Source of the DNA: a virus
Strand: one strand, 5' to 3'
Length of the DNA stretch: 33,173 nt
Virus record (IMG/VR): IMGVR_UViG_3300027822_000386
Coordinates: 1 to 33,173 of that record
In this document: positions 1-30,124 of the stretch, one piece after another
Position numbering within the stretch: the stretch's first letter is position 1
Layout of the letters: every line of letters begins with the position of its first letter
The notes under the pieces: model-generated
What the model was told of the DNA's origin: nothing
Databases searched by the model: none
The model's input: only the letters and a program-made list of their open reading frames with translations
Made by a program: the position numbers and the translations under genes

Positions 1-3000
1 AAAGCATCGCCTTCATCAGAAAAAGGGTTCATTATTAAAAAATTATTTCGTCTTGTGTGTTCTGAAATTTTAAAATAATAAGGCTCATCATCGTCTGGAT
101 CTACACCACCACTAAAATAATTCATAGCTGTAACACCAAAAGCTGTTGCAATAACGCTGGCAGCAATTTTTTTTCCTCTTTTAGATTTTAACGCTTTCAT
201 TGCTCGAACAGGGCCCTGAACGCCTACATTAAAAAATAAATAAGCTGCATTAATATGGTCAGACCACTCGCCTTTATCATTAAAATTAATTGTTAATTCT
301 TTTGCATACATGGCAGCATCCGGCATTGACATTCCGCTTTCAACAAGATTTTTAAAGGCCGATAAACGGACAGTGTTTTCAACTGTTTTATTTACATCTG
401 TGATATATGCGAATGTCGTATTTAACGCTTTTTTATAGGCGGCCTTATTCCCTCTTCGAGTTATTTTAATCTTTTTTTCAATTTCTTTTGCTTGTGCATC
501 AAAATTTTTAAGCCCAAAAAAACCAACAGCGCCACCATGCGCATGATATAATTTCTGCCAAGAGTTCCATTCTACATTCCCCTTTTTTTCATCTTTTTTA
601 CGATATCCCCTATAAAGAGATCGCATTGCCTTCGGGTAGTCTTTTATTACATTTTTTAAAATTTTCTTTGGATGCTCTGACCCAAGATTAAAGGCTGCTG
701 CCTCAGCATCTTTAAATGCATTTTTTAATATAAACTCAGGATCTAAGGCCGTGTATACTGTTGCAAAATATCTGTTTATTTTTGCAGCGGTTTTAATCAA
801 AATATTTACTTGTTGTGCATTCATTTGCAACATTGCTTTTCGGACTAAAGGATCTTCAATTTTAATATATTGTTTTACACCATCCTCATAGACATGGATA
901 AAATTTTTTTGGTTTTGTGCCCAGGCTGGCACAAGAATTTTTTTAATTTTTTGTGTTTTTTTATCCCATTTTTTTTTCATAACCGATTTATTTATTGACC
1001 ATAAATCTGGGTTAGGATACTTGCGCACTAAATTAAGAAATTTTTTAGAAACTTCATGCTGTCTGATTTTAATAATTGTTTCAGATGTCCCGACAATTGA
1101 CCATGCAACAGGACTTTGAGCTCTCGATTCCCGTCCCATGGCATATTTTAATCCAGAGTCAAAAACGTCAAAACCCCTACCGACTCCGCCAATAACAGGT
1201 TCACCATCTTTTCCTCTTAATGGCACATAAAAATCATATTTATTACGCACATTATTATATGTTTGCTTACTGATCATGCCGGCATTATAAAGCATTTTTA
1301 ATCGCTTTTCATTAATAGCATAAACATCCTTTGCAAGTTCTTTTAAACGTGTTGCCTTTTTTTCATCATCAAATTTTTTTAAAATTTCCCTGGCTTCCTT
1401 GTTTGTCATCCCTGAACCAGAAGTTTGCTCAGTTCCTTTAATCTCATTTCTTTCTTCTAAAGCATGTTTTGCATAAACATAATCATCAAGTTCCTGGATA
1501 TCTATTTTTGCCTTGGCAATTTTTTCCAATAATGGATCTACAATTTTTTCTTCAAACCGCTTTAATTGGTCTCCAACTTTACCCGGGAAGAGTTTAGTAG
1601 CCAAAAAAACATCAAGATCATGCGGCATTTTATTTTTATTTAAAATTTCTTGTAATCGTTTTAGGCGAATAAATTTATCTTGAAGTTTACGGATTATAAA
1701 ATCACCCACAATTTCACCAGACCTTAATTCTTTGCCCATTGTTTGTTGAATAGGATGCCGAATTAAATCAAATTTGTCTTTTATAGAAAACTGTATTTCA
1801 TCCAATGCATAATCTTTTTCAGGTACAAAAATTTGTGCCCCGCCTTGGCGCGCTGTTTTATATTCATTAAAAATTAAAGTTAACAAATCTCTGGTTTCTT
1901 TTACATCTTTAGCGGTTGCCTCATAATAATTTTTATCTTTTTTAATTTTTTCGGCAAAAGAGTCAAAAAGTTTTTTTAAATAACCAATGATTTTATTGAA
2001 AAGAGTTTTATCTTTTTGAAAAATTTCTCCAAAAAATTCTTTATTTGTTAATTGGTCTCCAACATAATCACCAATTATTTCTTCAAGTTCAATCGAACCA
2101 GTAATATTTCTTGTACCTTTTTCTTTTTTTAATTTAATGACTTTATCTGTGTAACCTGGTAGCTTCCCAGATTGCGCTATTAAAGCAGATTCAAGTGCTT
2201 CGTAAAGGCCTATGTTATCTTTTTTTAACTCATGAACAGCTTCATGCCCTATAATTTTAAGCATAGGCTTGGTGTTATTTGTATTAATAAAGATAGTGTC
2301 TTTAACTCGACCAGCTACAACACCATTAAAATCATATATTTCAGGGTTATTGTTTTGGAAGTATATGATTTTTTTATTAAAAGCTTTTTCTATTAATTTA
2401 TGATCGTTTCGTTTTTTATTATCAATTTCTTTTTCGTCAACAGCCACAAACATATTTTCCGGCAATTCTTTTTTTAATTGTGCCGCAAGACTTTTTGTAA
2501 GTTGATCTGTTTCGGGTATTTTTTTTGTTTTTAAATTTTTCTTTTCTTGTTTTTTATCTTTTTCTTTTCCTTTTGATTTTTTTGAAAAAATAAGTTCATC
2601 GCTAAGAGCAAATTTCGCCGTTGTGCCTCCTCTTGGATAAGATGGCATTAAATTAGTGCCGCCAACTCCTTGTACCCCTGCAATCGGTAAGAAATCATTA
2701 AAATTTACAATATAACTTTTAATAAATTCCATTTTTGAGTGAGGAATTGTATTTGATGTGTCTACAAAAACAATTGAAGAAGCATTTACTCGCTCACCGG
2801 CAGATAATATTTGTAATGTTAATTTTCTGGCAGGCACACCAGGTTTATATTCTAAAAAACCAAGAGGAATACCATTAACTGCTCTAAAAACTATTCCAGT
2901 TTTTCCAGGATAATTTTTATTAGTAAAATTAAGAACGTCATGTGAATTAAGCATAGCTTTTTCTTGCGGAAAATTTCCTACTTTTTCTCTATCTTGAAAA

Positions 3001-6000
3001 GCAATATCAATTTTTTCTTGTATAGTTTTAACTGGCCGTTCGGCAATATCTCCCATTTCATCAAAAGAAACATATTTTTTATTAGCAATAATTAATGATT
3101 GCTGTTTAATTTTAGTAAGGCTTAATAATTTATTAAACTTTTTTATAGTCGCCCTATCAGGCTTAGAACTTTTAGCTGATTCAGAGGGATGATTATGAAC
3201 AAAATATATTTTATTAGTTTTAGGGTTTCGCATGGCGGGCATTAACGCCAATAAAGGTTTAACATTTGTAGATGCTGTAAAGCCTTTTGAATGTTCTTGA
3301 ATTTGCAAAATTTTATTATTTTTATCAACTGATATAACATAAGACCATTCTTGTGCTTTTTTTCCTAAAAATCCCATCAATGAAGCCACATCATCTATAT
3401 TTTCAACATACATGCTTTCAGCTTTAATTTTACCGGTATCTACAAGATGTATGTGCTGAGAAGCGTGTAATTTAAATAATTTTTCTTTTGTTTTTTCAGT
3501 TTTAGCAATATTTGGGTTTGTCGGAAATTGTAAAATAGTTTGTTTTTGTACTGGTTTTTCAATTATTCTTTTATATTTTTTTCTGGTTTTTTGAGTCTTT
3601 AATTCTTTTTTGACAAGATTGACTTGCCCATTGAACAAATCAAGTTGATTTTGTTTTGCTACGCTTTTATTCTTAAAATGAGAAATTTCTTTATCAGGCT
3701 TAAATATGGACGGCTGTTTTTCTTTAATTTCATAGGCTATGGGTTTGTTTTTATTTTTTGCAACTTGAAAATTTGTGCCTTTGCCTTTCGTTACTATCCA
3801 CTCGCTTTCAGGAACGCCTTGGGCTTCATATGGAAATTTTTCACGTCTTTGTATGGCTGTTAGTTTAGCCCGAACGGATGTGTCTCTGGCTTCTATCTCA
3901 CCAGCCAACTTTTTATATGCTTCAAATGCAGTCTTCGGAGCATTTTCCATTTCGATAGAAATATTTTTTAATGTTTCCAAAAGTTGTTTAATAAATTCGT
4001 TATTTTTGTTTTTTTCTATAAATTCTTTTTTTGAGTTTGAACCAGGGGAGTTAAGCCACTGGTCAGTAAGAAAATCTTCATATTGAATTTTATTTTCAAG
4101 CAAGCGTTGATATTGCTTTGAAACGCCTGAAAGCATACCCTGAATAGTATTTATTTGGAACTGCTCTACCGAGCCACCTGTTGCAAACCCTTCAATGTCT
4201 TGAATGACGTGCTGGATTTCATGAAATAGAAATGATTTAACTTCTTTAACAGATTTAGTTTTAATCTCGATTTCTGCTTCTAAATCAACTAATCCTTCAG
4301 AAGCTCTATCTATTGCTGGTAAATAACTACCTATTTCTTCTATAATATCAGGATTAACTTCAATCGAAACTAACAAATTTTTTAACTGCGGATAGTTTTT
4401 ATATAATTTATCATGTGTTAATATCTCGCTTAAAAGGCTATTAGTTCCAACGCCTTTTGTTCTTTCTTGTAATACTTTAGAATTAAATTTAGCCTTACTA
4501 TCATCAATTTCAAACTTCCAAATGTCTTCTTTTTCAGCGCCTTTTAACCAACCGGTGTTTCTCCAAACTTCTTTTTTGTCTATACCATCAGCCAGCATTT
4601 TTTGGGCCTTAGATAGAGCACCTTTATCCGCTCCTATTGCTTTTTCGCCTGCCATTTGGAAACGAATAGCTTTTGTATCTTTTAACTTTTCTTTTTGAAT
4701 ATTTTTTTTAACAAATTTTCCCGATGCAATTTCTTTTTCGATACTTCTTATAGTTTTTTGACCGATAAGATTTCTCAAAGAATCCATAATATCTAAAAGC
4801 TTTTGAACAATTTTGCCCAAAGCGCTTTCTTGGGAAAACAATCGGCCTTTAATCATTTCACCTATAAACTCAGCCTCTTTTTCTTCAGTAAGTTTGCCAT
4901 CAAACCCATCTTCACGAATAGCATCATGAATAATTTTTAAATCTGAATCTAAAACAACGCCCATATCTTTGAACAAATGCCATTGCTCATGAAAAAGGCT
5001 CCCGATGTCTGCCAGATCACTAATCCCACCAATTTTAAACTCCATTCTGATATTATCTTTTGAAGAAATATATGCGGCTCTTGGTATTTGACCTTTTTGC
5101 AACGTTATTGCAAAACCTTTACCGACAGAATCAACAGTAAGAATTTTAACTTTAGGCATCCCCGGATATTGAAACCATAGGTTGCCCTCCTTATCTTGCC
5201 CTATTTCGCTGCCTGTATCGGAAAAAGCTTTTTTGATACTATCAACGGTTAATGGTTGCCTTATTCCAACTTGAGTAGAAAATTTTATTATTTCTTCTTC
5301 TTTCGGTTTTTTTTCTAACTCTAACCCGTGTTTTGTCGGCTGTATAACCTTTCGTGTATCTCCTGATAATGTTTGTTCTGCTCGATCACTTTCTTTGTCC
5401 CCTCCGCTAATTCCTTGATTTCTTGTTTTGATTGCGGCTGGAAGAATTTGTCTAATTTTTCCGTAGGCTTCTTTTTTGATCCTGCTTGCATCTGCTGGAC
5501 TTGTTGCATTAGAAAGCTCCTTTGCGTACTGATTTATAATATCATTAATTTGCCCTTTTTGTATGGCAAAAACGTCAAATGCTTTTTTTAATAAATCTGC
5601 CTCTTGTGAAATTTGTTTACCCTTTTCAGTATCAACGACAAAACCTTCTGAGGAAAGTCGTTCAGCTTTTTTAGGGGCACTTACCAATCCGAATAATTTT
5701 TTATCGACTATAAGGTTTGAAACGATATGTTCTTTAATTTTAGCTCGTTCTATTATTAATGGTCGATTTAATATTTCATCGCCAAATAAGCTTTGCTGTA
5801 TTTCTGTTTTTCGGCTTACTCCTTGCAAGTCAAAAATCATTTGCTCTAATACTTTAATATTTATGCTTTTTTTCTTTTTATTGATTAACTTAAAAAGAGT
5901 TCTTTGGTCGTCATGGTTTTTAACCATATCACCAAGTAATACTCCTTGATTTTGGGGGAAACGACCAAGGTTAACTTCATTAAACAATTCAGGCGCTAAT

Positions 6001-8996
6001 TGAGCCAATGCCATGCCTTTTTGTGCGATATTATTTGTTGTCGCGATCCCATACTCTTCAAGCAACTGTTCTTTGTTTAATTTAAGTGCTTTGAAAATCA
6101 TAGCCGCATCTTCAGCCGTCCCTTGGCCCTCAGCAATATTTATCAAAGCTCCTTTGTTTTTGGCTTCTTGTTCGGTTTTTACCGACAAAAACCGAACCAA
6201 AGCCATATCTATCTCCAGTCTCTGGAGTAATTCAAACCTATGATGACCATTAACAACATAAATTTTTCCATCTTTTGGATCTTTCCAAACAGAAAGAATG
6301 CCAGCAATATCTTTATCCCATTTTTGAACATTTTTTAATTTTGCAGAAATACCTTTCTGATTTAATCTTTGTTTATACTGAAACTTTTCAGGATCAATGT
6401 TTAAATTTTTAGATGCAATAACCTCGACATTATCGTATAGCCCAGGTTTATTTTCTCTTTTTTCAATTTGGCTTAAAAGTTTTTTTATTTCTTCATTTTT
6501 TTGTTGGACTTTTTTAGCAATTTTATTGGCAGTTTCTTTAATCTTTTGTTTCTGGGCCTCAACATCTTTTTTCTGGCTTTCAATATTTTGTTGCTGTTTC
6601 TCAACATCTTTTTTTTGCTCCCCAATCTCTTTTTTTTGTTTTTCAAAATTAATATCTTGCTGCTGTTTTTCAGCATTTTTTTCTTTTGTGGCCTCCTTTT
6701 TTTTTGTTCTTTTTGCCTGACTTTTTGCCCATGCCCCTTCCGAAGATTTGCGGAAAAGCCGTTGAATCTCAGATCCCTTTACACTTCTTTTGCCTTGTTT
6801 AAGACGATTTTCTTTTTCATCAATCATCTTTAAGTCCGCATTTTTTAAATCTTTATCAATCCCATAGCTAATACCTATGCCCGACAAAAATAATTCTTCC
6901 CCTTTTTTATATCCAATCCCATCCGACAATTCACGGTCGGCTTCCATTTTGTATCGAATTTTTAATTTATGTTTTAATGTTTCTTTTATTTTTTTAACAA
7001 TATCTTCAAGTTCTTTTTTAGAATCACCGGTTATAATTAATTCTTCACCGCCATAACGATACCCATTATCTGAAAATCTGTTAATAACATCCCCAACGCT
7101 TTTTAATATTTGATCGCCCGCATCATGACCGAGAACATCATTTACCCAGGAAAAGTTATCAATATCTATCATTAATTTTTCTTTTTTTTGATCTTCAGGC
7201 AAATTGTCTTCTTTAATTGAGCTTTCAATCCATGCCGCTTTGTTGTGAAGTTTAGTTAGCGGGTCAATATATGCTTTTTTTGCCATTTGCCTGGCAATGC
7301 CTCTGGCCTCATCAACTGTTTCAACTTTTTCTAAAATTGCCTCAAAATTTTCTCTTGTAACAGTGTCACGCCTTTCACCTTCCCGCTGCTCTTTTGGTAC
7401 TGATGCTTCTTTTTTCCTACGGTCCTGTTTTTTTATATTGGTTATTATTATTGGTTTATCAGTAACTGGAACTTCTTTTTTTGAACTTTTTGTTATTTCT
7501 TTCTGGATAGGAGCTATTCCTTCCTGACCAGTTTCAACATCTTCAATTCTTTGTTGTTTTAATTCTTTTTTGTCTAAAGCATTAATTGGATGTTCTTTTT
7601 GCGTTCCAGCAATTGGTGACGAATATATTTCTTGAATTTCTGCCCGTAAAAGATCGTTTGCATCCAAACCTTGGAGCATTGTTTCTAAGGCATCTTTTGT
7701 AAATTCACCATCTTCATAGCCTTGCCGCAATTGTTCTATTAATAAATTTGGTTTGGTTTTTTCTTGAGTAGGTTTTAATTTATTAGAAAGCCCTGCATCA
7801 TCCGCTACATATTCCGTATCCTGTGTTGTCTCATCTGTTAATTTATCCTGAATTTTACTAACACCCCTTGATGCGATTTTCATGCCTCCCATCATTAATG
7901 GAGTAGTAAGTAGCACAGAACTTAAAACCTCTTTAAAAGCTTCCTCATAAGTCAATTCTTTGTCTCTTAATCCATGAATTGTCTCGTAATGAGATGTCTT
8001 TTTTTGTGTAATCGTCTCACCAAGCATTTCTTCTGTTAGAACAGTTGCAAGCTTACCAACAGAAAGACCGGTTTTTAAAGCTAAGTTTTTACCAATTTGA
8101 CTTGCGGCTTTCTTTTTTATTTCATTTAAAGCTGTTTTCATGGCCGTCTTAGAAGCAGCTTTTTTCCCAAGATTAAGAACGCCACCCATAAAAAGATTGC
8201 CTATTGTTTCCCCGCCAGCTTCCCAAAGACCAACCCAGTCAGCGTCAGACTCAACAATATCATAAACCTCTTTCCATTTATTTTCTAATTCAGGCGTTAT
8301 TTTTTCATCTTTATGAGCTGCCAAAAATTGTTCTTTGACTCTATCAATAAATTCATCCTTTGTTGCTCCTTGTGAAACTGCCGTGCCAGCTGCAAATCCA
8401 GTAGCCATCCCTGCCGCCGTGCCCACAATTGGAATAGTTGATCCGGTTAATCCTGCAAGGGCAGAGCCCCCGGCTTTTGCACCAAAAGAGACTATGGCAT
8501 TTACAAGACTATATCCAAGCGAATCGGCAGCCGATTCAAGATCCCCGTGCGTAATTTTTTGATCCGTAAAAGGAATTTTAAGCCAAGTTTGTTCTTTTTC
8601 TTTTTCTGTTAAAGTTTTTCTGCGCTCACGTTCTTTTTTATTAGTTTCAATCCATCTGTCAAGGCCAGACTCTTTTAGCGACTCATCCCCACGCCTTAAT
8701 GTTCTACCCATAACTTCAGGCGCAACGTCTGTAAATATTGAAGGAATTGATTTGGTAATTGTCCAGAGGCCATCAAAAAAAGATTGCTCCTCTCCTTGCT
8801 CTGGAGTTACTTCTGGATCTGCTGTAAAGGTAGCAAGTGAATCAAAAAAAGAATTATCTTTAGGCGGATTATTTATAGAAGAGCGATCCTCAGAAGAAAC
8901 ATTCTCAGAAGAAGCCTCTCCAATAATATTTGGTTTTTCTGTGTTTTCTTGATCTTCACCCGCCAAAGATGAAAGTTCATAAAAAAAATTACTCAT
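1..8996 (-). CDS. Giant multidomain phage polyvalent protein with GGDEF, ParB-like, JAMM and HExxH peptidase domains (C-terminus beyond window)
   Basis: One open frame of at least 2998 codons starts at ATG 8996, three bases after the preceding stop, with AAAGGT upstream as ribosome site, and leaves the window still open. Domains in order (residues): Gly/Ala-rich hydrophobic stretch about 150-205; GGDEF domain about 569-736; heptad coiled coil 785-826; ParB-like domain about 853-1000 with GHHRFELL near 915; HEQWH at 1336-1340; LPD23-like segment about 1448-1610 with TGW near 1481-1483 and HEIQH at 1592-1596; QLDLF at 1784-1788; JAB/RadC-like domain about 1880-2000 with HNHPS at 1934-1938; HEAVH at 2251-2255; long helical region from about 2390 to the edge resembling polyvalent-associated C-terminal domains (LPD38-like, less certain). 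Last known gene of the virion operon and next to internal-protein candidates, so probably packaged and ejected into the host, where its domains would act on host defences or signalling. Polyvalent-protein architecture is known; packaging and function are inference. Confidence 0.9.
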   Translation of the reverse strand, partial: MSNFFYELSSLAGEDQENTEKPNIIGEASSENVSSEDRSSINNPPKDNSFFDSLATFTADPEVTPEQGEEQSFFDGLWTITKSIPSIFTDVAPEVMGRTLRRGDESLKESGLDRWIETNKKERERRKTLTEKEKEQTWLKIPFTDQKITHGDLESAADSLGYSLVNAIVSFGAKAGGSALAGLTGSTIPIVGTAAGMATGFAAGTAVSQGATKDEFIDRVKEQFLAAHKDEKITPELENKWKEVYDIVESDADWVGLWEAGGETIGNLFMGGVLNLGKKAASKTAMKTALNEIKKKAASQIGKNLALKTGLSVGKLATVLTEEMLGETITQKKTSHYETIHGLRDKELTYEEAFKEVLSSVLLTTPLMMGGMKIASRGVSKIQDKLTDETTQDTEYVADDAGLSNKLKPTQEKTKPNLLIEQLRQGYEDGEFTKDALETMLQGLDANDLLRAEIQEIYSSPIAGTQKEHPINALDKKELKQQRIEDVETGQEGIAPIQKEITKSSKKEVPVTDKPIIITNIKKQDRRKKEASVPKEQREGERRDTVTRENFEAILEKVETVDEARGIARQMAKKAYIDPLTKLHNKAAWIESSIKEDNLPEDQKKEKLMIDIDNFSWVNDVLGHDAGDQILKSVGDVINRFSDNGYRYGGEELIITGDSKKELEDIVKKIKETLKHKLKIRYKMEADRELSDGIGYKKGEELFLSGIGISYGIDKDLKNADLKMIDEKENRLKQGKRSVKGSEIQRLFRKSSEGAWAKSQAKRTKKKEATKEKNAEKQQQDINFEKQKKEIGEQKKDVEKQQQNIESQKKDVEAQKQKIKETANKIAKKVQQKNEEIKKLLSQIEKRENKPGLYDNVEVIASKNLNIDPEKFQYKQRLNQKGISAKLKNVQKWDKDIAGILSVWKDPKDGKIYVVNGHHRFELLQRLEIDMALVRFLSVKTEQEAKNKGALINIAEGQGTAEDAAMIFKALKLNKEQLLEEYGIATTNNIAQKGMALAQLAPELFNEVNLGRFPQNQGVLLGDMVKNHDDQRTLFKLINKKKKSINIKVLEQMIFDLQGVSRKTEIQQSLFGDEILNRPLIIERAKIKEHIVSNLIVDKKLFGLVSAPKKAERLSSEGFVVDTEKGKQISQEADLLKKAFDVFAIQKGQINDIINQYAKELSNATSPADASRIKKEAYGKIRQILPAAIKTRNQGISGGDKESDRAEQTLSGDTRKVIQPTKHGLELEKKPKEEEIIKFSTQVGIRQPLTVDSIKKAFSDTGSEIGQDKEGNLWFQYPGMPKVKILTVDSVGKGFAITLQKGQIPRAAYISSKDNIRMEFKIGGISDLADIGSLFHEQWHLFKDMGVVLDSDLKIIHDAIREDGFDGKLTEEKEAEFIGEMIKGRLFSQESALGKIVQKLLDIMDSLRNLIGQKTIRSIEKEIASGKFVKKNIQKEKLKDTKAIRFQMAGEKAIGADKGALSKAQKMLADGIDKKEVWRNTGWLKGAEKEDIWKFEIDDSKAKFNSKVLQERTKGVGTNSLLSEILTHDKLYKNYPQLKNLLVSIEVNPDIIEEIGSYLPAIDRASEGLVDLEAEIEIKTKSVKEVKSFLFHEIQHVIQDIEGFATGGSVEQFQINTIQGMLSGVSKQYQRLLENKIQYEDFLTDQWLNSPGSNSKKEFIEKNKNNEFIKQLLETLKNISIEMENAPKTAFEAYKKLAGEIEARDTSVRAKLTAIQRREKFPYEAQGVPESEWIVTKGKGTNFQVAKNKNKPIAYEIKEKQPSIFKPDKEISHFKNKSVAKQNQLDLFNGQVNLVKKELKTQKTRKKYKRIIEKPVQKQTILQFPTNPNIAKTEKTKEKLFKLHASQHIHLVDTGKIKAESMYVENIDDVASLMGFLGKKAQEWSYVISVDKNNKILQIQEHSKGFTASTNVKPLLALMPAMRNPKTNKIYFVHNHPSESAKSSKPDRATIKKFNKLLSLTKIKQQSLIIANKKYVSFDEMGDIAERPVKTIQEKIDIAFQDREKVGNFPQEKAMLNSHDVLNFTNKNYPGKTGIVFRAVNGIPLGFLEYKPGVPARKLTLQILSAGERVNASSIVFVDTSNTIPHSKMEFIKSYIVNFNDFLPIAGVQGVGGTNLMPSYPRGGTTAKFALSDELIFSKKSKGKEKDKKQEKKNLKTKKIPETDQLTKSLAAQLKKELPENMFVAVDEKEIDNKKRNDHKLIEKAFNKKIIYFQNNNPEIYDFNGVVAGRVKDTIFINTNNTKPMLKIIGHEAVHELKKDNIGLYEALESALIAQSGKLPGYTDKVIKLKKEKGTRNITGSIELEEIIGDYVGDQLTNKEFFGEIFQKDKTLFNKIIGYLKKLFDSFAEKIKKDKNYYEATAKDVKETRDLLTLIFNEYKTARQGGAQIFVPEKDYALDEIQFSIKDKFDLIRHPIQQTMGKELRSGEIVGDFIIRKLQDKFIRLKRLQEILNKNKMPHDLDVFLATKLFPGKVGDQLKRFEEKIVDPLLEKIAKAKIDIQELDDYVYAKHALEERNEIKGTEQTSGSGMTNKEAREILKKFDDEKKATRLKELAKDVYAINEKRLKMLYNAGMISKQTYNNVRNKYDFYVPLRGKDGEPVIGGVGRGFDVFDSGLKYAMGRESRAQSPVAWSIVGTSETIIKIRQHEVSKKFLNLVRKYPNPDLWSINKSVMKKKWDKKTQKIKKILVPAWAQNQKNFIHVYEDGVKQYIKIEDPLVRKAMLQMNAQQVNILIKTAAKINRYFATVYTALDPEFILKNAFKDAEAAAFNLGSEHPKKILKNVIKDYPKAMRSLYRGYRKKDEKKGNVEWNSWQKLYHAHGGAVGFFGLKNFDAQAKEIEKKIKITRRGNKAAYKKALNTTFAYITDVNKTVENTVRLSAFKNLVESGMSMPDAAMYAKELTINFNDKGEWSDHINAAYLFFNVGVQGPVRAMKALKSKRGKKIAASVIATAFGVTAMNYFSGGVDPDDDEPYYFKISEHTRRNNFLIMNPFSDEGDA
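3000..3360 (-). other. JAB/RadC-type JAMM domain in the giant protein
   Basis: HNHPSESAKSSKPD at residues 1934-1947 reproduces the JAMM signature HxHx(7)SxxD exactly, with H1934, H1936, S1944 and D1947 as predicted metal and catalytic ligands. Flanking strands (SYVISVDKNNKILQIQEHS, then QQSLIIANKKYVSFDEMG) fit the RadC-like JAB fold. In phage polyvalent proteins such domains are predicted metal-dependent peptidases or deconjugases. Substrate unknown. Confidence 0.8.
6519..6644 (-). other. Heptad-repeat coiled coil in the giant protein
   Basis: Residues 785-826 form six consecutive seven-residue units (EKQKKEI, GEQKKDV, EKQQQNI, ESQKKDV, EAQKQKI, KETANKI), each ending in Ile or Val. The DNA is correspondingly repetitive. 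The segment joins the GGDEF and ParB-like domains. Since GGDEF enzymes must dimerise to work, this coiled coil could supply the dimer contact, which is inference. Confidence 0.8.
6788..7292 (-). other. GGDEF (diguanylate cyclase) domain inside the giant protein
   Basis: Residues about 569-736 read as a full GGDEF domain. The entry motif DPLTKLHNKAAW matches the usual DxLTGLxNR. DID at 611-613 supplies the metal-binding aspartates. NDVLGHDAGD at 619-628 matches the substrate-binding signature. RYGGEEL at 647-653 holds the active-site loop, with GGEE as in active GGEEF enzymes but Leu for the final Phe. A GISYGI segment closes the fold. RFSD at 640-643 lies exactly five residues before GGEEL, the spacing of the RxxD allosteric site of PleD. 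Active family members condense two GTP into c-di-GMP. Activity here is predicted from motifs only. Confidence 0.88.
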
Positions 8997-8999
8997 TAT

Positions 9000-10316
9000 T
9001 TATTTACCTTTATTCGGATTGGTCGGTATTTTGTTAGATTTAGTACGATCTTGCGGTATTTTATAAAACTTATCACTCCCAGGTTTTTTTAATTGTGTTG
9101 TTTCTTTCGGTTTTCCACCGAGAACACTGGTATCAAACTCATATTTTTTTGCTATTTTTTCTATTTCAGTTTGTAATGCTTTTGGATTTGCACTACCAAC
9201 ATTGGTTATTGCTTCCTGCATTATCGTTGTTAAGGTTTTTTGCTTTTCAGGTGAAAGGCCGATATTTCCTATAAGAGAAACAATTTGCTGAGGCAATGGT
9301 TTTTTATTCTCAATTCCAGTTTTTCCTTTACCCTTGGCCTCATTATTTTCCATACTTTGCGTTTGTAATGCAATTGCCCTAAAATTTGCTGCAAGTGCGT
9401 TATCCGCTGCCTCAACACCTTTATCATCTCCATTTGTTTCAGCCTCAAATCTTAATTTTCTCAATGTAGCTGTTTTTGTATGAAGACTTGTTAAATTAGC
9501 CAAACTTTTTTGCTGTTCTTTTGTTTCTGCTCCAAAATTATTTTTTATTTCTTTAAATCCTTTTTCTTGGTCATTGAAAGCTTTGTTCCTGGCATCCATT
9601 GCCGCTTTATGTTGAGGCACAATGACATTTTTAAAAAAGGCTTTTCTTTCTTTATCCATTTGCCTCTCAAATTGCGCTTCCCTTTTAGGGTCTCCATTTA
9701 TTCCAAAGCCATATTCGTACACTTCATCTGGAAACATTTGGCCGAAAACATCTTGTTCTGTCTGATTTTTAATTTCATCCCATTTTTCTATGAATAAATC
9801 TTGTGACGATTTATACAATGGATCGAAACCAACCTCTTGAACAAAATATTTAAGCAGGTCTGCTTTTTGCTGTTCTTTATATTTTTCAAAATTTACAGCC
9901 GTTACATCCGGTTCTTTAATTTGCGGTTCCTTTGAAAATTGACTTGATGTTTCTCCGCCGAATTTATCAGCATCAGCATGTATTTCTTTCCATACTTGTT
10001 GCGTGTTTCCTTCACCAGCTATCTCTTTCATTCTTTGGGAAAGCGAGCCAAAAGCGCTTTCATCAGGTTTTTTAGGAACCTGTGATTGTCCACCTGCATC
10101 ATCCCTGCTGATTATTTGGTTTAAAACAATTTCTTTTTTTTGAGGATCAGACATATATTCATTAATGGTACTTTCGGGCAAAGTGACCCATTCGTTATTT
10201 TCATCTTTGAAGCCCCAGGTGCCGCCTCCAGCAGGATTTTTCCTTAAGTTGTCACCAGCCAAAGCATCAAGGTCAGCACTTGATTTTACATCTTTTGTGT
10301 TTGTTTCTATTCCCAT
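9000..10316 (-). CDS. Helical hydrophilic protein, candidate internal/ejected virion protein
   Basis: Encodes 438 residues and begins at ATG 10316, behind AAGGAGCGAT. No recognised domain. The protein is rich in Lys, Glu, Gln and Asn, has no hydrophobic segment, and contains long predicted helices around residues 110-320 and again near 345-395. The C-terminal 40 residues are basic and Pro/Asn-rich. It sits directly between a 176-residue Gln/Ala-rich protein and the giant polyvalent protein, the place where podoviruses keep proteins that are packaged inside the head and ejected with the DNA. That role is inferred from position and composition only. Confidence 0.85.
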   Translation of the reverse strand: MGIETNTKDVKSSADLDALAGDNLRKNPAGGGTWGFKDENNEWVTLPESTINEYMSDPQKKEIVLNQIISRDDAGGQSQVPKKPDESAFGSLSQRMKEIAGEGNTQQVWKEIHADADKFGGETSSQFSKEPQIKEPDVTAVNFEKYKEQQKADLLKYFVQEVGFDPLYKSSQDLFIEKWDEIKNQTEQDVFGQMFPDEVYEYGFGINGDPKREAQFERQMDKERKAFFKNVIVPQHKAAMDARNKAFNDQEKGFKEIKNNFGAETKEQQKSLANLTSLHTKTATLRKLRFEAETNGDDKGVEAADNALAANFRAIALQTQSMENNEAKGKGKTGIENKKPLPQQIVSLIGNIGLSPEKQKTLTTIMQEAITNVGSANPKALQTEIEKIAKKYEFDTSVLGGKPKETTQLKKPGSDKFYKIPQDRTKSNKIPTNPNKGK

Positions 10317-10882: not shown

Positions 10883-11353
10883 TTAATTCCTTTTTTTTAT
10901 TTTTTGGCAATCAGCCGTAACTTTTGTTCTTTGATTTTTTACTCTTTGCTTTTTTTCATCACCAAATATTTTAATTTTTAATCGTTTCATCCATTGATTA
11001 ATCGAAAGAGTCGAATAATTAACATATCCGCATCCAATTTGATCAGGACAAAACCATTGAGTTTTTAAACCGCCTCCAACTTGATTACCAGGCAACGTAT
11101 TTACTTCAGCCAATATCAATGCAATTTTACAATAAGGACATTTTTTACCTTTAAGTATCCATTCTTTTTGTCTATCGATATTCCGCTGCATATCTTTTTG
11201 ATGATTTCGTTCAGCTTTTTCAATTTTAAAAGTTTTATATGCTTTAATATCTTCAAGTTCAATATCATTTGTTTCAAAATATTCTAACATGGTTACAAAA
11301 TCCTGAATCATTTTAAGGCTAAAAACTTGAATTTTTTCTTCTATTCTTGCCAT
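10883..11353 (-). CDS. Small zinc-ribbon protein
   Basis: Encodes 156 residues starting MARIEEKIQVF. ATG 11353 shares its A with the TAA stop of the upstream gene (TAATG), which settles the start and implies translational coupling. An upstream in-frame extension lies wholly inside the neighbouring gene and is rejected. After a charged helical N-terminal half, the C-terminal half carries CPYC (about residues 73-76) and a second cysteine pair in WFCPDQIGCGYV, a likely Zn-ribbon. The tail is strongly basic (KKQRVKNQRTK). Function unknown; metal binding plus basic tail would fit nucleic acid binding or a virion assembly role. Confidence 0.82.
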   Translation of the reverse strand: MARIEEKIQVFSLKMIQDFVTMLEYFETNDIELEDIKAYKTFKIEKAERNHQKDMQRNIDRQKEWILKGKKCPYCKIALILAEVNTLPGNQVGGGLKTQWFCPDQIGCGYVNYSTLSINQWMKRLKIKIFGDEKKQRVKNQRTKVTADCQKIKKRN

Positions 11354-12654
11354 TAAAAACATATCCACTCCCATAATCGTAAAATTTGTGTGCATTTTGC
11401 CATAGTTGACCAAGAATAATTAACTGGCCCTTGACAAATATCACTCCAACAATTCCAAGAACCGGTATAAGGAGGAGAGTTCGGGCCTGAGTTTGGAATG
11501 CATTCGGTACAACCATGATCATTGTCACATGCCCAATGAGTTGCACAATTTCCTGATATAGCAGTACAATGATATTGTGAATTATCATTATAATGTTCCA
11601 TGCAATTTTCTTGAAATACCCAAAAACCGGCACCTGCTCCACCACAACCAGCATAAAGTTGATAATTCCGGTATTTCCCAGTTATTTGATAATACGAAAC
11701 CTTATAGTTCCCACCTGATGTTTCGCATGATGCTGGTATAATTTCATTCCAATATCCCACAGTACATCGTACAACCCATTCAGCTTTACCACATCTATCT
11801 TCAACAGAGACAGTACCAGTACCACAAGCTGTATCGTCTGTGTAAATCAAATGAGTTTTAAAACCAGTATGCTCTTCTGTTATTGTACACGCTTCGTCAA
11901 GCCAAAAACCCGTTCCAGAAATTGTCCAATGATAATCAACTTCACCCGTAATCCCGCCTATAGCCATAACGGTTATACTCGAATTTCTACCTATGGTATC
12001 AGAATTATCCTCTTCCTCAAATCGTAAAATATCTTCTTCGGAAATATCACCGCAACATTCATCTATAGGACAACGACCAACACTATATTCAAGTGTTTCA
12101 TAAACAGCAATTGGAACATCGAGTAATGCCCCACTACTATTTCTATAAATTAAGCGCCTTAAAGCTATTTCAAAACTAAAGCCTCCGTCTGCTTCAGCAT
12201 CAGCCGATATCGTAATATGACTGCCATCGGCTGCATTTATTGTAAAAAAACCTTCTTCGTTGCCAGATATTATTCTATATCCAACTACATCAGCAGAGCA
12301 GACAAAGCTTTTTGTCACAACCTCTCCTGGGCAATAACAAGGATCGCCCATGCAATGAAACCAAAGATCAGGAACATATGGGGTATCTTCTACTGTGAGA
12401 GATGTAAATGGTATATCCGGAGATTGCGGATAACTCCAACCAGGATATCCAGGTGGATATGGCTGAAAATATTCCATCTCAAAATATGTATCATTTGGTA
12501 TATCAGCAGGATCCCCATGAGTTGGATATGGTTTTTGAAATTCAGAATGCGGTTCATGCCGAATCCTATCCATTTCCTCAATGCTATGCATTTTCATCTG
12601 GTCGCCATACTCACCATTTGAAACATATGTGCGCCGAGCATAATCCTTAGCCAT
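11353..12654 (-). CDS. Cysteine-rich protein of unknown function in the tail-fibre region
   Basis: Encodes 433 residues from ATG 12654 (MAKDYARR), with AAAAGG about 12 bases upstream; a TTG four codons earlier is possible. The N-terminal 75 residues are polar and Tyr/Pro-rich (PYPPGYPGW). The remainder has about 23 cysteines, clustered at FHCMGDPCYC, RCPIDECC and, near the C-terminus, a run of five in about 25 residues. The middle part (TDDTACGTGTVSVEDRCG) is beta-rich and resembles Ig-like or adhesin repeats. The cysteines may form disulfides in an exposed virion protein or bind metal. No family recognised. Last residues overlap the next gene by one base. Confidence 0.85.
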   Translation of the reverse strand: MAKDYARRTYVSNGEYGDQMKMHSIEEMDRIRHEPHSEFQKPYPTHGDPADIPNDTYFEMEYFQPYPPGYPGWSYPQSPDIPFTSLTVEDTPYVPDLWFHCMGDPCYCPGEVVTKSFVCSADVVGYRIISGNEEGFFTINAADGSHITISADAEADGGFSFEIALRRLIYRNSSGALLDVPIAVYETLEYSVGRCPIDECCGDISEEDILRFEEEDNSDTIGRNSSITVMAIGGITGEVDYHWTISGTGFWLDEACTITEEHTGFKTHLIYTDDTACGTGTVSVEDRCGKAEWVVRCTVGYWNEIIPASCETSGGNYKVSYYQITGKYRNYQLYAGCGGAGAGFWVFQENCMEHYNDNSQYHCTAISGNCATHWACDNDHGCTECIPNSGPNSPPYTGSWNCWSDICQGPVNYSWSTMAKCTQILRLWEWICF

Positions 12655-12699
12655 GAAAAACTGCAACCTTTTTTTTATTAATTTTTTTATTTAATTTTA

Positions 12700-13125
12700 T
12701 TAAGCACCCTGAGCCAAAGTAAAAATTCCATCGTCATTAAATCTAATTTCAAAAGTAACTGCTGACGCTGATTTGTTTTCACCAAAATCAATAAGGCATA
12801 CAACAGGATCATCTGTTACAGTATCATCATAAATAATTGCATATCTTGCTGTAAGAGTTGCCGCTGGCCATGAAACGTTAGCAGCATCAAAAGTATTTGT
12901 TCCTGAATCAGCCTCCCATGTAACAGATGTCAATGTTACGCCACCAACCGTATATCCACCAGCAGTAGCCAATTCTTCTGTGGACAAAATATCTCCATAA
13001 TTAATTTCATCTTCATTTATTGTGTATGTATCGTTCAATAAGATAATCTTAAATACATCATTAGACATATCAAATACTTTCTCACCAAATTTATCTATAA
13101 AATTATTAAAAATAGTATCTGCCAT
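12700..13125 (-). CDS. Stand-alone virion domain homologous to the C-terminus of the 584-residue fibre protein
   Basis: Encodes 141 residues from ATG 13125 behind AAAAGGGG. The pattern (DVFKIILLNDTYTI, then GGYTVGGVTLTSVTW, then ARYAIIYDDT and CLIDFGE) is a recurrent small phage structural domain. The last 125 residues or so of the gene at 14784-16538 show the same order: VKCCLLLSTYTPN, GGYSTGGVTLTN, FRYVVLYNDS, ICYFDM. It is therefore found here both alone and fused to a DUF2341-type fibre. Likely a beta-rich decoration or fibre-associated protein; exact role unknown. Confidence 0.85.
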   Translation of the reverse strand: MADTIFNNFIDKFGEKVFDMSNDVFKIILLNDTYTINEDEINYGDILSTEELATAGGYTVGGVTLTSVTWEADSGTNTFDAANVSWPAATLTARYAIIYDDTVTDDPVVCLIDFGENKSASAVTFEIRFNDDGIFTLAQGA

Positions 13126-13186
13126 TTTTTAACCCCTTTTGTTATTTTTTAATTTTTTATATTTATTTTTATATTTATTTTTTTAT

Positions 13187-14782: not shown

Positions 14783-14783
14783 T

Positions 14784-21768: not shown

Positions 21769-23091
21769 CTATGTAAATAAAGAAGGCTCTATTAAATCAG
21801 TAAGTAGGGTCAGGCAATTTCTTTGTTCACAACCGATGTTACTGTAAATTCTCAAGAACTGATCCCATTCATCATATCCACTTCTCTGATGAATTTGCTG
21901 ATCAAGATTTCCCCATCCAAGAGGAGTCAGCTCATATTTCTTAATAACATTATTTGGCTCAAAGAAAATTTTACCTGGCGATAAAGAAGGATCAATAACC
22001 ATTTCAATCGAACCATCACCAGCTGAAAAAGTTAAAACTTCATACCCGCCCCTTAGTGTAGTTGGAGCAAAACGAACATCCCCGATTAAAAGACCGGCAT
22101 ATTTACGTCTCTGACCAACACCCATACGCATTGTCTGAATGGCTTTTCCAGATTTTACTCTTGAAACATCAATAGCCTGCAACATAAGATCAAGGGTTAA
22201 TTCTCTTGGTGTCCCTGAGTTTCCAAGCAATGTTGCGGCCCATTTTGGATTATCGGCAACGGTAATATCCTGAAAAGATGCCAATAATGTTCCATCGTCA
22301 TAAATACCATCAAGACCAGTCATTTCAATAGGTGTATTTGTTGTGGCATGTGCTGCTTCTCTCGCGCCAATCCTTACAACACGAGATCCGCTTGGGACAG
22401 CTTCTTCAACAATAGTATAACCCCTTGCCGCCGTAATTGGATGGCTTGCCATATACTCAGCATCGTGCGCTTCCATGGTAATAACATTAGTGGCAGGATT
22501 GACACTTGCAATTCTACTCGCGACTGATGATTGGTCAATCGCTGTGCCGGCAGCATAAAAATCTACTAGCATTCCTTCAATACATCTAGAAACGCCTATG
22601 CCACCGGCAACGTTACAGGTAACATCCCATTCTGCCGATTGCGATAATGCATCAGAATTTGCTGAAAGAGTCGCAAGTTCTCCAAAGCCATCTCCACAAC
22701 TTTGACGGTTAAGATCAACAACAATTCCCTGATAGATATCCTGAACGGCATCAGACATCCCATCAACCATCGCGCCGATATTTCCTTTGGATGCCTCAAT
22801 CATGGGGCCAGACAACCGGAGAACCCCATAATTATATTTAGGCAAGATTTTGGATTGATCTGTTTTGCCAACCAGCGCTTCCGGCAACATAACAGATTCT
22901 TTCCTTGCACCGATACCTTGTGCCCTGGCATAACGAGTCGCGAATACATAACCTAAGCCTGCCGGTTTTCGGTTTGATTTCAGAAAATGGTTATAAGTGG
23001 TTTTTTCGCCTTTAAATTGATTTGTAATACCTTCCCCATATACTATTTTGAGTGTATCTTGAATCGCAGCTAAAACATGATAATCAGCCAT
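21769..23091 (-). CDS. Major capsid (coat) protein
   Basis: Encodes 440 residues from ATG 23091 (MADYHVLAAIQDTLKIVYG). It directly follows the scaffold gene in a terminase-portal-scaffold-coat series. Size and layout fit an HK97-fold coat: a charged N-terminal arm, a long helix region near residues 95-125 (GAMVDGMSDAVQDIYQGIVV), a beta-rich insertion at about 150-275 and a C-terminal domain (GYEVLTFSAGDGSIEMVIDP). No protease gene or obvious cleavage site is present nearby, so P22-like scaffolding without proteolysis is more likely than HK97-type maturation. Confidence 0.85.
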   Translation of the reverse strand: MADYHVLAAIQDTLKIVYGEGITNQFKGEKTTYNHFLKSNRKPAGLGYVFATRYARAQGIGARKESVMLPEALVGKTDQSKILPKYNYGVLRLSGPMIEASKGNIGAMVDGMSDAVQDIYQGIVVDLNRQSCGDGFGELATLSANSDALSQSAEWDVTCNVAGGIGVSRCIEGMLVDFYAAGTAIDQSSVASRIASVNPATNVITMEAHDAEYMASHPITAARGYTIVEEAVPSGSRVVRIGAREAAHATTNTPIEMTGLDGIYDDGTLLASFQDITVADNPKWAATLLGNSGTPRELTLDLMLQAIDVSRVKSGKAIQTMRMGVGQRRKYAGLLIGDVRFAPTTLRGGYEVLTFSAGDGSIEMVIDPSLSPGKIFFEPNNVIKKYELTPLGWGNLDQQIHQRSGYDEWDQFLRIYSNIGCEQRNCLTLLTDLIEPSLFT

Positions 23092-24007: not shown

Positions 24008-26089
24008 TTATATGGTTTCATTTGTCAAACCTTTTTTTTCTTTTTCTTGCATAATTGCAGCTTGTTGCTGCTCTTGCTGCTGCATATCAAAAATTGATTT
24101 ATGAATATCTGTATGGTGAATTAATACAGTTTGGGCAGGCATACTAAGAGATTTAAATTCAGGACTTAACAAAAAAAGCCTATGGGTTTCATAATGAGAA
24201 CCATGATCATCGTATTTAAATAAAGGATCTTCACCCAAAACCATTGGCTCTGCATCATTAGCCGTTTGCATGGTTAAAAAAATCCCAGGCAAAGTAAAAA
24301 CTTTTACGGCTCCCATCATTGTATCCTCTTCAACCAATTGAAAATCATCTATGCCCGCTCCTGCAATTTTCGCATTTTCAGATAAAGCCCTTTCTATATC
24401 AGGGCTTATTTCTTTGCTAAAAGTGCTCAAGCCCATTCTTTGAAGAAGGTCAATCCTAAAGGCAGGATCAAGAGATGTTTCTTCAGAAAAAAAGCCAGAC
24501 TCAATTAATTTCATTAACATTTGTGTCCGGCCTGTTTCTGTTGCCGCAATTCCTGAACTTATTTCCAATTGAACATCTGTATTGCCTCTTAAATCAGCAC
24601 CAATAAATGCTTTAACCTTAACGTCCGATCCTTTGCCACCGATTTTAATCATTTGTTTTTCAGTATAAACGTATTGCGCCAAAATTAATCTTTTTTTATT
24701 AATCCTTTTAATGCTACGATAAAATCTTGTAATATCCGGAAAGTGCCCTAACTCAGCTGCCGCTCTTAAAGAATCAACCATTACTCCTGAAGATTGGGAA
24801 CCTGGAGCCCGACCTCTTAAAATATTTTTAGGATCACCAGCAGCATCTTGACCCGCTGCCACATGAACATTTCTCTCATTTAGCACCTGAACAGGTAAAG
24901 GTGTTCCATTATGTATTTCAGGCTTTAACCCGCCAGAAAGCAATCCATCATATTTTAAAAGTAAAAAACTTTGCCCTGCTTGAGATAACTTTTTAAGTCC
25001 CATTTCCGAACCAAGCATAACAACCGGTCGACCAAGCCCATCTCTATTTGTCTCAAGCGCTTGGTCAATCCTGTTGATCGTATTCTGTGGGCTGATTAAA
25101 TCATTAACACTTGAATCAGACCAATACCTGCCAGGCACATAATGATAATGAAAATCAGTTACAGAATAATTCCATTTTTCTCCATCAACAGGAATTGGCA
25201 TTTTTTCATAATCAAAAATCTTTTTTCCGCAACAAGTTGCCGAATACCTACCATTTGGAAAATCTTTTGTTGGGGCATATTCTATTTCTTTAAACAACAC
25301 AGAAGATTCATCATCAAGCGCTGATAAATTTTCAAGCTTAGCTCCCTTCCAAGCTGATACATTTCCGACAAATTTCATTAATTTTTTTTGATAATTAATA
25401 GCAAAGGTATCATCATCTGAAGGCAATAAAACATTAAAAGTATCCTCAACCCACTCCCGATCTTTTAATGATTTTATCCCTATATATTTTTTACTTTGTA
25501 TTTTATCCCCTAAAGAACTAACAGCGATATTAAAAGGCGGAATTGTTTCATCAATAATTTCACCTTTTTTAATAAGCACGCCATCTTCATCAAAACCCAT
25601 TCCTCTATTAATGGAAACTTTAGGAAAAGTTCTTATAAAAGAAGTTCCCGTTAAAATCATCCAGATAGCACATTTTTCTTTTTCATCAATAAACTCTTCA
25701 TCGTTTTTCGTATCAAGATAATTTAAAAAAATTTCTCCTGTTTTCGCAGCTTCTTTGTCTTCTTGCTCATCAGAGTTCGGCCAAACAGTAGTCTCAAAAT
25801 CTTTATTCAAAATCAAAGCTTTCATTGATCTTGTAAAGTCACGAATAATATTTGTAACCGGTGTTGGCATAGAAACACTTGTTGCAATGCGCTTAAATGA
25901 ATTGTCATTAGCTGCCCAAGACAACCATTGCTCACCCATATAATAAAGAATATTTCTGAACCAAATTTTTTCCAGGATTCTACGTGAAATATCAAGCTGT
26001 GAATCAAAAAAATCATCCGTAAATCTAACGAGCCGCTCAGGTTCTTTTTTTTCTTTTTTAGTAAGCCTGGTAAATGATAAATTTTCCAT
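24008..26089 (-). CDS. Portal protein
   Basis: Encodes 693 residues from ATG 26089, with AAGGAAA upstream, close to the size of P22-like portals (about 725). Recognisable portal features are the N-terminal helical wing (RILEKIWFRNILYYMGEQWL), the TPVTNIIRDFTRSMKALI segment, and the central WSDSSVNDLISPQNTINRID region that precedes the crown/stem domains. The C-terminus is Gln-rich (DMQQQEQQQAAIMQEKEKK). It forms the dodecameric DNA channel at the capsid vertex and docks the terminase encoded just upstream. Gene order strongly supports the call. Confidence 0.88.
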   Translation of the reverse strand: MENLSFTRLTKKEKKEPERLVRFTDDFFDSQLDISRRILEKIWFRNILYYMGEQWLSWAANDNSFKRIATSVSMPTPVTNIIRDFTRSMKALILNKDFETTVWPNSDEQEDKEAAKTGEIFLNYLDTKNDEEFIDEKEKCAIWMILTGTSFIRTFPKVSINRGMGFDEDGVLIKKGEIIDETIPPFNIAVSSLGDKIQSKKYIGIKSLKDREWVEDTFNVLLPSDDDTFAINYQKKLMKFVGNVSAWKGAKLENLSALDDESSVLFKEIEYAPTKDFPNGRYSATCCGKKIFDYEKMPIPVDGEKWNYSVTDFHYHYVPGRYWSDSSVNDLISPQNTINRIDQALETNRDGLGRPVVMLGSEMGLKKLSQAGQSFLLLKYDGLLSGGLKPEIHNGTPLPVQVLNERNVHVAAGQDAAGDPKNILRGRAPGSQSSGVMVDSLRAAAELGHFPDITRFYRSIKRINKKRLILAQYVYTEKQMIKIGGKGSDVKVKAFIGADLRGNTDVQLEISSGIAATETGRTQMLMKLIESGFFSEETSLDPAFRIDLLQRMGLSTFSKEISPDIERALSENAKIAGAGIDDFQLVEEDTMMGAVKVFTLPGIFLTMQTANDAEPMVLGEDPLFKYDDHGSHYETHRLFLLSPEFKSLSMPAQTVLIHHTDIHKSIFDMQQQEQQQAAIMQEKEKKGLTNETI

Positions 26090-26491: not shown

Positions 26492-26755
26492 TTATTGTTT
26501 TCGTTGTCTTGCATTAAAAATAGCTATTTTCTTACATGTAATACAAACCGGATTATTTTTATTTGCTTTTAACAATTTACAATCATAACAAGGGCTCCTA
26601 CTTGATTTATTTAAAACAGACCGTACATTTTCTTTATTTTTAAATATACTATTTCCATCAAAAGATTTACTAATAAAAATATCTTCAGGCAGTTTAACAA
26701 CTTTTTTATTAGCCAATTTGTATGTATTCTCCGTCTTCAAGATCTTCCTCTTCAT
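26492..26755 (-). CDS. Small basic protein with paired CxxC motifs
   Basis: Encodes 87 residues from ATG 26755, overlapping the terminase 3' end by 47 bases. A TTG at 26716 preceded by GGAG (spacing 12) is a credible alternative start that would give MANKKVVKLPED. The C-terminal part has CYDC and, after about eleven residues, CITC, a likely zinc knuckle or ribbon, within a Lys-rich context. No named family recognised. Proximity to the terminase suggests a packaging or nucleic-acid-binding accessory, unproven. Confidence 0.65.
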   Translation of the reverse strand: MKRKILKTENTYKLANKKVVKLPEDIFISKSFDGNSIFKNKENVRSVLNKSSRSPCYDCKLLKANKNNPVCITCKKIAIFNARQRKQ

Positions 26756-28244
26756 TTTCTTTTTGAATTGCTCGTAATTCACGCCAGGCAGCTTTTGATG
26801 CATTATCTAATTTTGACTCAATTTTTTCAATATAGGTTTTCGCTGCTTTTATATTTTGGTTTGACACCTTGACCGCCACCGGTCTTGCCATTGCAATTAA
26901 AGCCGCTTCATCGTAACAATGGTCTTCTTGCCCCTGGTCAATATCCTCTGGGTTTTCTTCACTATTACAAAGAGTCGGTATTGTCCTTATAAACTGTTCG
27001 CATCTACGATAAACAACCAACAAAGGCAATTCATTTTTATTTTCCGGAATAGCAAGCCGTTCTCTAATTTGCCTGATTTTTAAGCTTCTATTCGGATCTC
27101 CAGGCCTTAAATGTATTCCAAAATTTTTAAAAACTTCAGCGGTACTTGGCCCTTGACCACCACCTTTATAATCAGGCTTTTTATTAAAACAAGTCGGATC
27201 GCATAATCTTATAATTTTATCTTGCCGACCTTCAAGCCCCATCAACGCTTCTCTATCTAAAATACCTTCAGCAATTTTAGAATCCTCCAAGCGCAAACCT
27301 GTATCAACCTCTCCATTCCATCCATACCATTCATTAAACCGAAAAATTCTTGTTTCATCATCAACCCACCACCAACCAATTGAAAATGGTGCGCCATAGC
27401 CCCAATCAAAAGTCATATAAATTTGAGCATTTGTAGGAATTGGGAAATTATTTTCAACGACATGTGTTTCAGCTGTGAAAACAAAAGACTGTCCAATAAA
27501 AACATCCCAATCACCATCAAGCCAAGCTCTTCTTAACGCAGGATCACGAATTGCCATCAGTTTAGCAACATATCTTGGGTCATTTTTACAGAGAATATGA
27601 TTGTCTTTTAAAAAGGAAGGAATATAAATTTTAGTGAAATGAACAATTCCAGAAGGCGTTTCAATCTCATCTCGCATTATAGTTTTAGGCGGCAACCCAC
27701 CAGAACCTAATTGGAAAAACTGCTTAACCTCATTATGCCCAACTCCGCCTGGATTGCCCGTACCAAAAAAATGAGATGGAACTCCATGTGGACTCCTGCA
27801 AGAACCTTGGAGCTTATCAACCATCTTGCTGAAAAAAGGAAAAGTCGTACACTCATCAATAGAGATTTCTGTAAATTGCTGCCCAACAAAATCATTAACG
27901 ATTGATAATCTATGCACGGCAACAAATTTAAAATTCGCGCCATTATCAAATCTTATAGCATTAACCTGTTGGTCTCCACCAATGCGTTCACAAGGCAACC
28001 CTGAAACAATTAATTCATCAGTGCGCCTTCGCAATTCAGCAAAGTCTTTATACTTTCGCCTTAAAACTAAACCGTTCCAAGCCGTACCATATCTGATGGC
28101 ACCCATAATTTGACGGCCAAGAAGCGCATCACTTTTCCCGCCACCACGAGATCCACCAAAAAACGTAAAATCACAAGGACAAGTTACCGCTTCAACTTGA
28201 GGCCCTGGCTGTGGCCCCCAAATAACTTTTTTCCTTATTCCCAT
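26709..28244 (-). CDS. terL: Terminase large subunit
   Basis: Encodes 511 residues from ATG 28244. The ATPase half has Walker A GGSRGGGKS at 30-38 and Walker B with acidic pair ISIDE (D130, E131). Motif GTGNP at about 161-165 fits the coupling motif. The nuclease half has the RNase H-like acidic residues: D280 in MTFDWGYG, D349 in RLCDPTCF and D441/D445 in DHCYDEAALIAMA. This ATP-driven motor pumps DNA into the procapsid through the portal and cuts the concatemer. It lies directly downstream of the small-subunit candidate. Full-length, with all key residues present. Confidence 0.95.
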   Translation of the reverse strand: MGIRKKVIWGPQPGPQVEAVTCPCDFTFFGGSRGGGKSDALLGRQIMGAIRYGTAWNGLVLRRKYKDFAELRRRTDELIVSGLPCERIGGDQQVNAIRFDNGANFKFVAVHRLSIVNDFVGQQFTEISIDECTTFPFFSKMVDKLQGSCRSPHGVPSHFFGTGNPGGVGHNEVKQFFQLGSGGLPPKTIMRDEIETPSGIVHFTKIYIPSFLKDNHILCKNDPRYVAKLMAIRDPALRRAWLDGDWDVFIGQSFVFTAETHVVENNFPIPTNAQIYMTFDWGYGAPFSIGWWWVDDETRIFRFNEWYGWNGEVDTGLRLEDSKIAEGILDREALMGLEGRQDKIIRLCDPTCFNKKPDYKGGGQGPSTAEVFKNFGIHLRPGDPNRSLKIRQIRERLAIPENKNELPLLVVYRRCEQFIRTIPTLCNSEENPEDIDQGQEDHCYDEAALIAMARPVAVKVSNQNIKAAKTYIEKIESKLDNASKAAWRELRAIQKENEEEDLEDGEYIQIG

Positions 28245-30012: not shown

Positions 30013-30040
30013 CTTGACACGTTACTCCTTCTATGTCAAG
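30013..30040. promoter_or_regulatory. Inverted repeat in the divergent gap, candidate operator
   Basis: CTTGACA and TGTCAAG are perfect 7-bp inverted arms with a 14-base spacer, midway between the leftward operon and the rightward regulator gene. Each arm includes a TTGACA -35 hexamer, one per strand, so a protein bound here could control both directions. No good -10 is seen at 17 bases on either side. Confidence 0.45.
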
Positions 30041-30124
30041 ATTAAAGTCACAAAAAAACATCTTTTTTATTTATTACCATTAATATCAACTATTTATATC
30101 AACAGCCTAAAATCAATAAACTCT

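Follow-up and report, generated by a model that had tools for sequence, protein, structure and literature searches.

A GGDEF domain of a phage lineage in a giant polyvalent-type phage protein

Results

The GGDEF domain and its relatives

The window analysed here is the whole of IMG/VR virus record IMGVR_UViG_3300027822_000386, a single linear sequence of 33,173 bases, and represents a 33-kb phage fragment; the last gene of its late block is a giant open reading frame (ORF) of 2998 amino acids (aa). We found that this ORF carries a GGDEF domain and that, by sequence, all but one of the GGDEF domains of giant phage proteins form, with the small YuA-phage proteins, a well-supported phage lineage apart from the sampled bacterial domains. 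By analogy with known polyvalent proteins, the domain is most likely a phage-lineage nucleotide cyclase or guanosine triphosphate (GTP)-binding module that would be delivered with the DNA.

The initial annotation had placed a GGDEF domain in a giant polyvalent-type phage protein at positions 6788-7292, and this domain is genuine, as Pfam, TIGR00254 and the fold model (below) all agree. The positions correspond to residues 569-736, the domain proper. In the profile search, PF00990 matches residues 575-685 (E 3.7e-16, 59.7 bits against a curated cut-off of 23.8) and TIGR00254 of NCBIfam matches with E 2.3e-19; there is a PHROG match as well. Read directly, the motifs DID, NDxxGHxxGD, GGEEL and RxxD are all where they had been reported (Table 1); NGYRY, exactly five residues, separates RFSD from GGEEL.

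A survey of giant phage proteins for GGDEF, which the initial annotation had proposed, yielded about 30 carriers in IMG/VR. In two alignment-based scans with matches read ORF by ORF, we found GGDEF in 36 rows of giant ORFs, which became 30 after duplicates and near-copies were dropped and 31 with the window. When viral contigs were scanned for a pattern taken from the window domain alone, no relatives turned up; the alignment-based scans did find them. Partner domains in the scanned giants were ART-PolyVal, the large polyvalent protein associated domains (LPD) LPD1, LPD5, LPD22 and LPD38, RadC, InPase or helicase, and one giant (L022) has the C-terminal family of the window protein (phrog_14770 and 616).

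Most fecal 'Bacteriophage sp.' matches were rejected as relatives, the ORFs read being ordinary bacterial-style cyclases. Likewise, L025, L027-29, L031, L033-37, L039-41 and most small IMG/VR ORFs encode canonical cyclases and lie on contigs that are viral or mis-binned.

We built an IQ-TREE tree of 117 domains, including 31 giant-borne, 45 bacterial, stand-alone phage and canonical viral domains. We found that 30 of the 31 giant-borne domains, together with the stand-alone proteins of YuA, Vojvodinavirus and similar phages, lie on one side of a branch with support of 99/99 and a length of 0.47 changes per column, in a tree whose bootstrap had not fully settled and in which the window row has an atypical composition. 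On the opposite side are all 45 bacterial domains and the canonical cyclases of viral contigs, which group with the bacteria. The window domain pairs with its closest relative, L013 (support 99/96). Since the bacterial rows are the best matches to this query, bacterial members of the phage branch may have escaped detection. L024 (8417-18739) encodes a 3441-aa giant with LPD1, LPD5 and ART-PolyVal; its canonical GGDEF domain lies outside the phage branch, was excluded from the branch count and suggests a second, independent acquisition.

Structure model and conservation of the pocket

We modelled residues 535-753 with AlphaFold2 from a 16-row alignment (the window and 15 phage relatives). The model has a mean predicted local distance difference test (pLDDT) score of 90.5 and a predicted template modelling (pTM) score of 0.81, and its best PDB matches in Foldseek are nearly all diguanylate cyclases. 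With VIA-align, it superposes on 3ign, a GGDEF domain bound to cyclic dimeric guanosine monophosphate (c-di-GMP), with Z 16.8 and a root-mean-square deviation of 1.9 Å over 141 residues, and on activated PleD (2v0n) with Z 16.3 and 2.4 Å over 142 residues. This modelled likeness to GGDEF structures is far beyond chance.

The comparison with PleD had been proposed as a way to see whether the nucleotide pocket is disrupted, and at the level of the fold it is not. D611, N619, D628, E651 and K728 occupy the places of PleD D327, N335, D344, E370 and K442 (the K728-K442 pairing is taken from the aligned range of 2wb4), which we take to be metal/catalytic, guanine and phosphate positions. Across the giant proteins, columns 611, 613, 619, 620, 627 and 650 are invariant (31/31), D628 is kept in 29 of 31, position 651 is acidic and position 652 is Glu in 30 of 31 each, and K728 is Lys in 30/30.

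Six close pairs of relatives were informative for the ratio of nonsynonymous to synonymous substitution (dN/dS) of the domain; the window itself lacks a relative near enough for this. The values are 0.022, 0.087, 0.162, 0.167, 0.242 and 0.321, by a simple Nei-Gojobori count in which several dS values are near saturation. The ratio is lower than for the remainder of the protein, except in L017/L019, where the two are about the same. Selection on the nucleotide pocket is thus supported by the aligned sequences, and the relatives show purifying selection. It is very unlikely that the domain is a bacterial gene captured in the past and now decaying: single members have lost motif letters (e.g. L133, with SGSNF), but the well-supported phage-only branch, the low dN/dS, the invariant pocket residues and a frame intact across 2998 aa stand against decay.

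We also found an RR-x4-R motif upstream of the domain. Its aligned Arg residues are present in 28/31, 29/31 and 27/31 giant proteins, and the strict form in 14/31 giant proteins versus 1/65 bacterial ones; it is conserved ahead of GGDEF in the giant proteins, not in stand-alone phage proteins. The motif could be a processing site, a feature of the pairing helix or a ligand contact. A PilZ-like reading was dropped because the spacing differs.

Motif drift and the feedback site

The initial annotation had argued for selection on activity from both the catalytic and the feedback site. The catalytic part stands, given the positions kept over 31 giants and the low dN/dS; the feedback part does not. 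RxxD at the exact offset occurs in 3/40 members of the phage branch, compared with 25/45 bacterial rows and 21/30 other viral rows, and the nearest relative, L013, reads EQPV there. Hence, RxxD is not a retained feature of the family, and since the site is not kept, product feedback is probably unimportant to the design. RFSD in the window may be an ancestral remnant or chance, and it is not evidence for selection on feedback.

The GGDEF motif opens with Ser in 27/40 and with Gly in 9/40 members of the phage branch, a contrast with the bacterial rows that is partly by construction, as these were selected for GG. Most relatives read SGDEF (YHISGDEF): Ser replaces the first Gly, and His the preceding Arg. 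Pectobacterium ECA3270 is active with SGDEF, as is VCA0965 with AGDEF, but a Ser variant of VCA0965 is inactive (PMC3974145); hence, the motif does not tell whether the branch is active.

This drift bears on two other explanations. A non-catalytic module could bind GTP or c-di-GMP, sense the nucleotide state of the host and switch another part of the giant protein, e.g. a peptidase, on arrival; we consider this possible, though improbable. In its favour, most of the clade combines conserved pocket residues with a catalytic loop that drifts, and non-catalytic GGDEF domains that still bind their ligand have been described (PMC3974145). Against it, GGEEL is intact in the window, as are the acidic catalytic residue and the lysine; 30/31 giants have an acid at the third position, which a pure sensor could do without; and no EAL, HD-GYP or PilZ domain lies alongside in the Pfam-scanned giants.

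The domain could also be a cyclase with another product (pppGpG, a cGAMP-type or cyclic mono-nucleotide, or ATP hydrolysis) that would feed or confuse cyclic-nucleotide defence signalling, which we regard as unlikely. The long separate branch, the family's own conserved C-terminal block K-x-x-R-x3-G-x-R and the Ser and His changes at the active-site hairpin are consistent with this, and interference with nucleotide-based host defence is a published hypothesis for polyvalent GGDEF domains (PMC5512222). Conservation of the guanine-contact Asn (31/31) and Asp (29/31) instead favours GTP.

Proposed role

Weighing these readings, we give about an even chance to residues 535-753 being a GGDEF cyclase of a phage-specific lineage that is delivered and makes c-di-GMP; the sensing module comes next and the cyclase with another product third. 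The delivered cyclase is favoured by the fold, the PleD-equivalent positions kept over 31 giants, the low dN/dS, the late context, the polyvalent layout and the activity of known SGDEF and AGDEF cyclases. Delivery itself is argued from the published biology of the family and the late-gene position; the layout of LPD, RadC and HExxH-type modules is one that PMC5512222 assigns to delivered proteins. By that biology, the giant protein would be packaged in the head and reach the cell together with the DNA, after which the GGDEF domain may be cut loose by putative zincin-type peptidase modules of the same chain. Two copies of the domain would then pair through their preceding helices and condense two GTP to c-di-GMP. 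Presuming that the host uses c-di-GMP, its c-di-GMP state would thereby shift within minutes of infection.

Some points weigh against a delivered c-di-GMP synthase. The Ser and His changes in most relatives may be a sign that catalysis has changed or been lost across the clade. In addition, PleD R446 pairs with L732 (model residue 198); the adjoining R731, Arg in 25 of 29 relatives, may stand in for it. Finally, GGDEF domains in a giant multidomain chain may not pair.

More broadly, it is conceivable, though less likely than not, that tailed phages own a distinct, long-diverged GGDEF enzyme lineage, housed mainly in giant proteins that are injected. At the very start of infection, these enzymes would make a signal nucleotide, perhaps one other than c-di-GMP and without product feedback.

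The giant protein and its gene setting

The late block occupies the minus strand and comprises terminase, portal, major head protein, tail and adhesin-like genes and last the giant ORF, so the giant gene lies in the late context of a portal-terminase phage. ORF 9000-10316 lies upstream, and the giant ORF begins as soon as it stops, which is consistent with a single transcript. The protein has at least two unrelated enzymatic domains (GGDEF and RadC/JAB, above cut-off) and an LPD domain, LPD23; from these sequence features it is a phage polyvalent protein. Three HExxH motifs without a profile match may mark zincin-like peptidase modules, the phrog_21-like stretch is probably a ParB-like domain, and the C-terminal region is ~31% identical to giant proteins of Stx and Vibrio phages. 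The giant protein has no match in PADLOC. A RadC/JAB domain lies inside the phage polyvalent protein in both the window and L013.

In the tail region, minus-strand ORFs at 12700-16538 are paralogue-like: 13187-14782 and 14784-16538 begin alike (LamG/DUF2341-type), and 12700-13125 resembles the end of 14784-16538. ORF 11353-12666 (minus strand), also in the tail region, encodes a cysteine-rich protein of 437 aa without a Pfam match. ORF 30014-30715 (plus strand) resembles a helix-turn-helix regulator and lies where the late block gives way to rightward genes.

Table 1. Positions in the window of the giant protein, its modules and motifs, and the late genes
Feature	Window positions	Strand	Basis or remark
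Terminase large subunit	26709..28244	-	Start of late block; same strand as giant ORF; PHROG match
Portal protein	24008..26089	-	phrog_156, E 3.6e-9
Major head protein	21769..23091	-	phrog_14242, E 1.2e-32
Giant multidomain (polyvalent-type) protein ORF	3..8996	-	Open over 2998 aa; C-terminus cut off by window end
GGDEF domain and preceding helices, residues 535-753	6738..7394	-	Modelled stretch; pLDDT 90.5; fold matches to diguanylate cyclases
RR-x4-R, residues 542-548	7353..7373	-	Upstream of GGDEF domain; aligned Arg in giant proteins
DID, residues 611-613	7158..7166	-	First D at PleD D327, presumed metal position
NDVLGHDAGD, residues 619-628	7113..7142	-	Guanine-contact N and D
RFSD, residues 640-643	7068..7079	-	Position of RxxD inhibition site
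GGEEL, residues 649-653	7038..7052	-	Direct read
K728-x-x-R731	6804..6815	-	Putative C-terminal phosphate-contact region; K at PleD K442 via 2wb4 aligned range
phrog_21 match, residues 854-1178	5463..6437	-	Includes VNGHHRF; E 4.3e-49; phrog_21 is 1362 aa, named portal protein
HExxH (FHEQWH), residues 1336-1340	4977..4991	-	Zincin-like peptidase motif; motif read
LPD23, residues 1447-1505	4482..4658	-	PF18838, E 1.4e-15
HExxH (FHEIQH), residues 1592-1596	4209..4223	-	Motif read
RadC-like JAB domain, residues 1867-1981	3054..3398	-	PF04002, E 2.3e-15
HExxH (GHEAVH), residues 2251-2255	2232..2246	-	Motif read
C-terminal region common to phage giant proteins, residues 2423-2990	27..1730	-	phrog_14770, 616, 10691; E 2.7e-103

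Comparison with known systems

The initial annotation knew of no described polyvalent protein with a GGDEF domain, but Iyer et al. 2017 (PMC5512222) already devote a section to them, name the Acetonema longum prophage protein WP_004096050.1 and propose that the domain interferes with, or uses, host nucleotide signals, including interference with nucleotide-based defence, the same signalling hypotheses. Like the window protein, the Acetonema protein has GGDEF in a giant chain of phage origin with other effector domains, a zincin-type peptidase (putative in the window) among them, and the same roles are proposed. The domain layouts differ: SNF2, methyltransferase (MTase) and ART there, and LPD23, RadC, three HExxH motifs and the phrog_21-like stretch in the window.

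In the open-licence papers, we found no description of how widespread the giant-protein domains are or of their common ancestry, nor of the RxxD loss or the upstream RR-x4-R, and on virion evidence for such giant proteins these papers held nothing useful beyond PMC5512222. Polyvalent GGDEF domains had been described as not very widespread; there are now about 30 giant phage proteins with one, nearly all in one branch with YuA-type proteins. This turns an isolated curiosity into a defined, testable phage enzyme lineage, a candidate delivered cyclic-dinucleotide synthase or sensor.

Stand-alone phage GGDEF proteins were already known (PMC10333796), and lysogeny by a phage with one accompanied hyper-biofilm, as an association only (PMC8471281). 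Those of Yuavirus and Vojvodinavirus (YuA gp44, Bordetella phage CN1/LK3) belong to the same phage-specific branch as the window domain, and the CN1 protein ranks second in a BFVD search with our model. However, YuA-type proteins are ~155 aa long and have a gene of their own, close to exonuclease and antirestriction genes, rather than lying within a giant protein, and they have a shorter C-terminal hairpin, an SGDEF, AGDEF or SGEEF motif and no upstream RR-x4-R.

With PleD and canonical diguanylate cyclases, the window domain shares the fold, the metal and guanine positions, the GGEE motif and the RxxD letters. It differs from them in its separate branch, in having no response-regulator or sensory input, in an RxxD that its relatives do not keep and in the R446 equivalent, which is not aligned.

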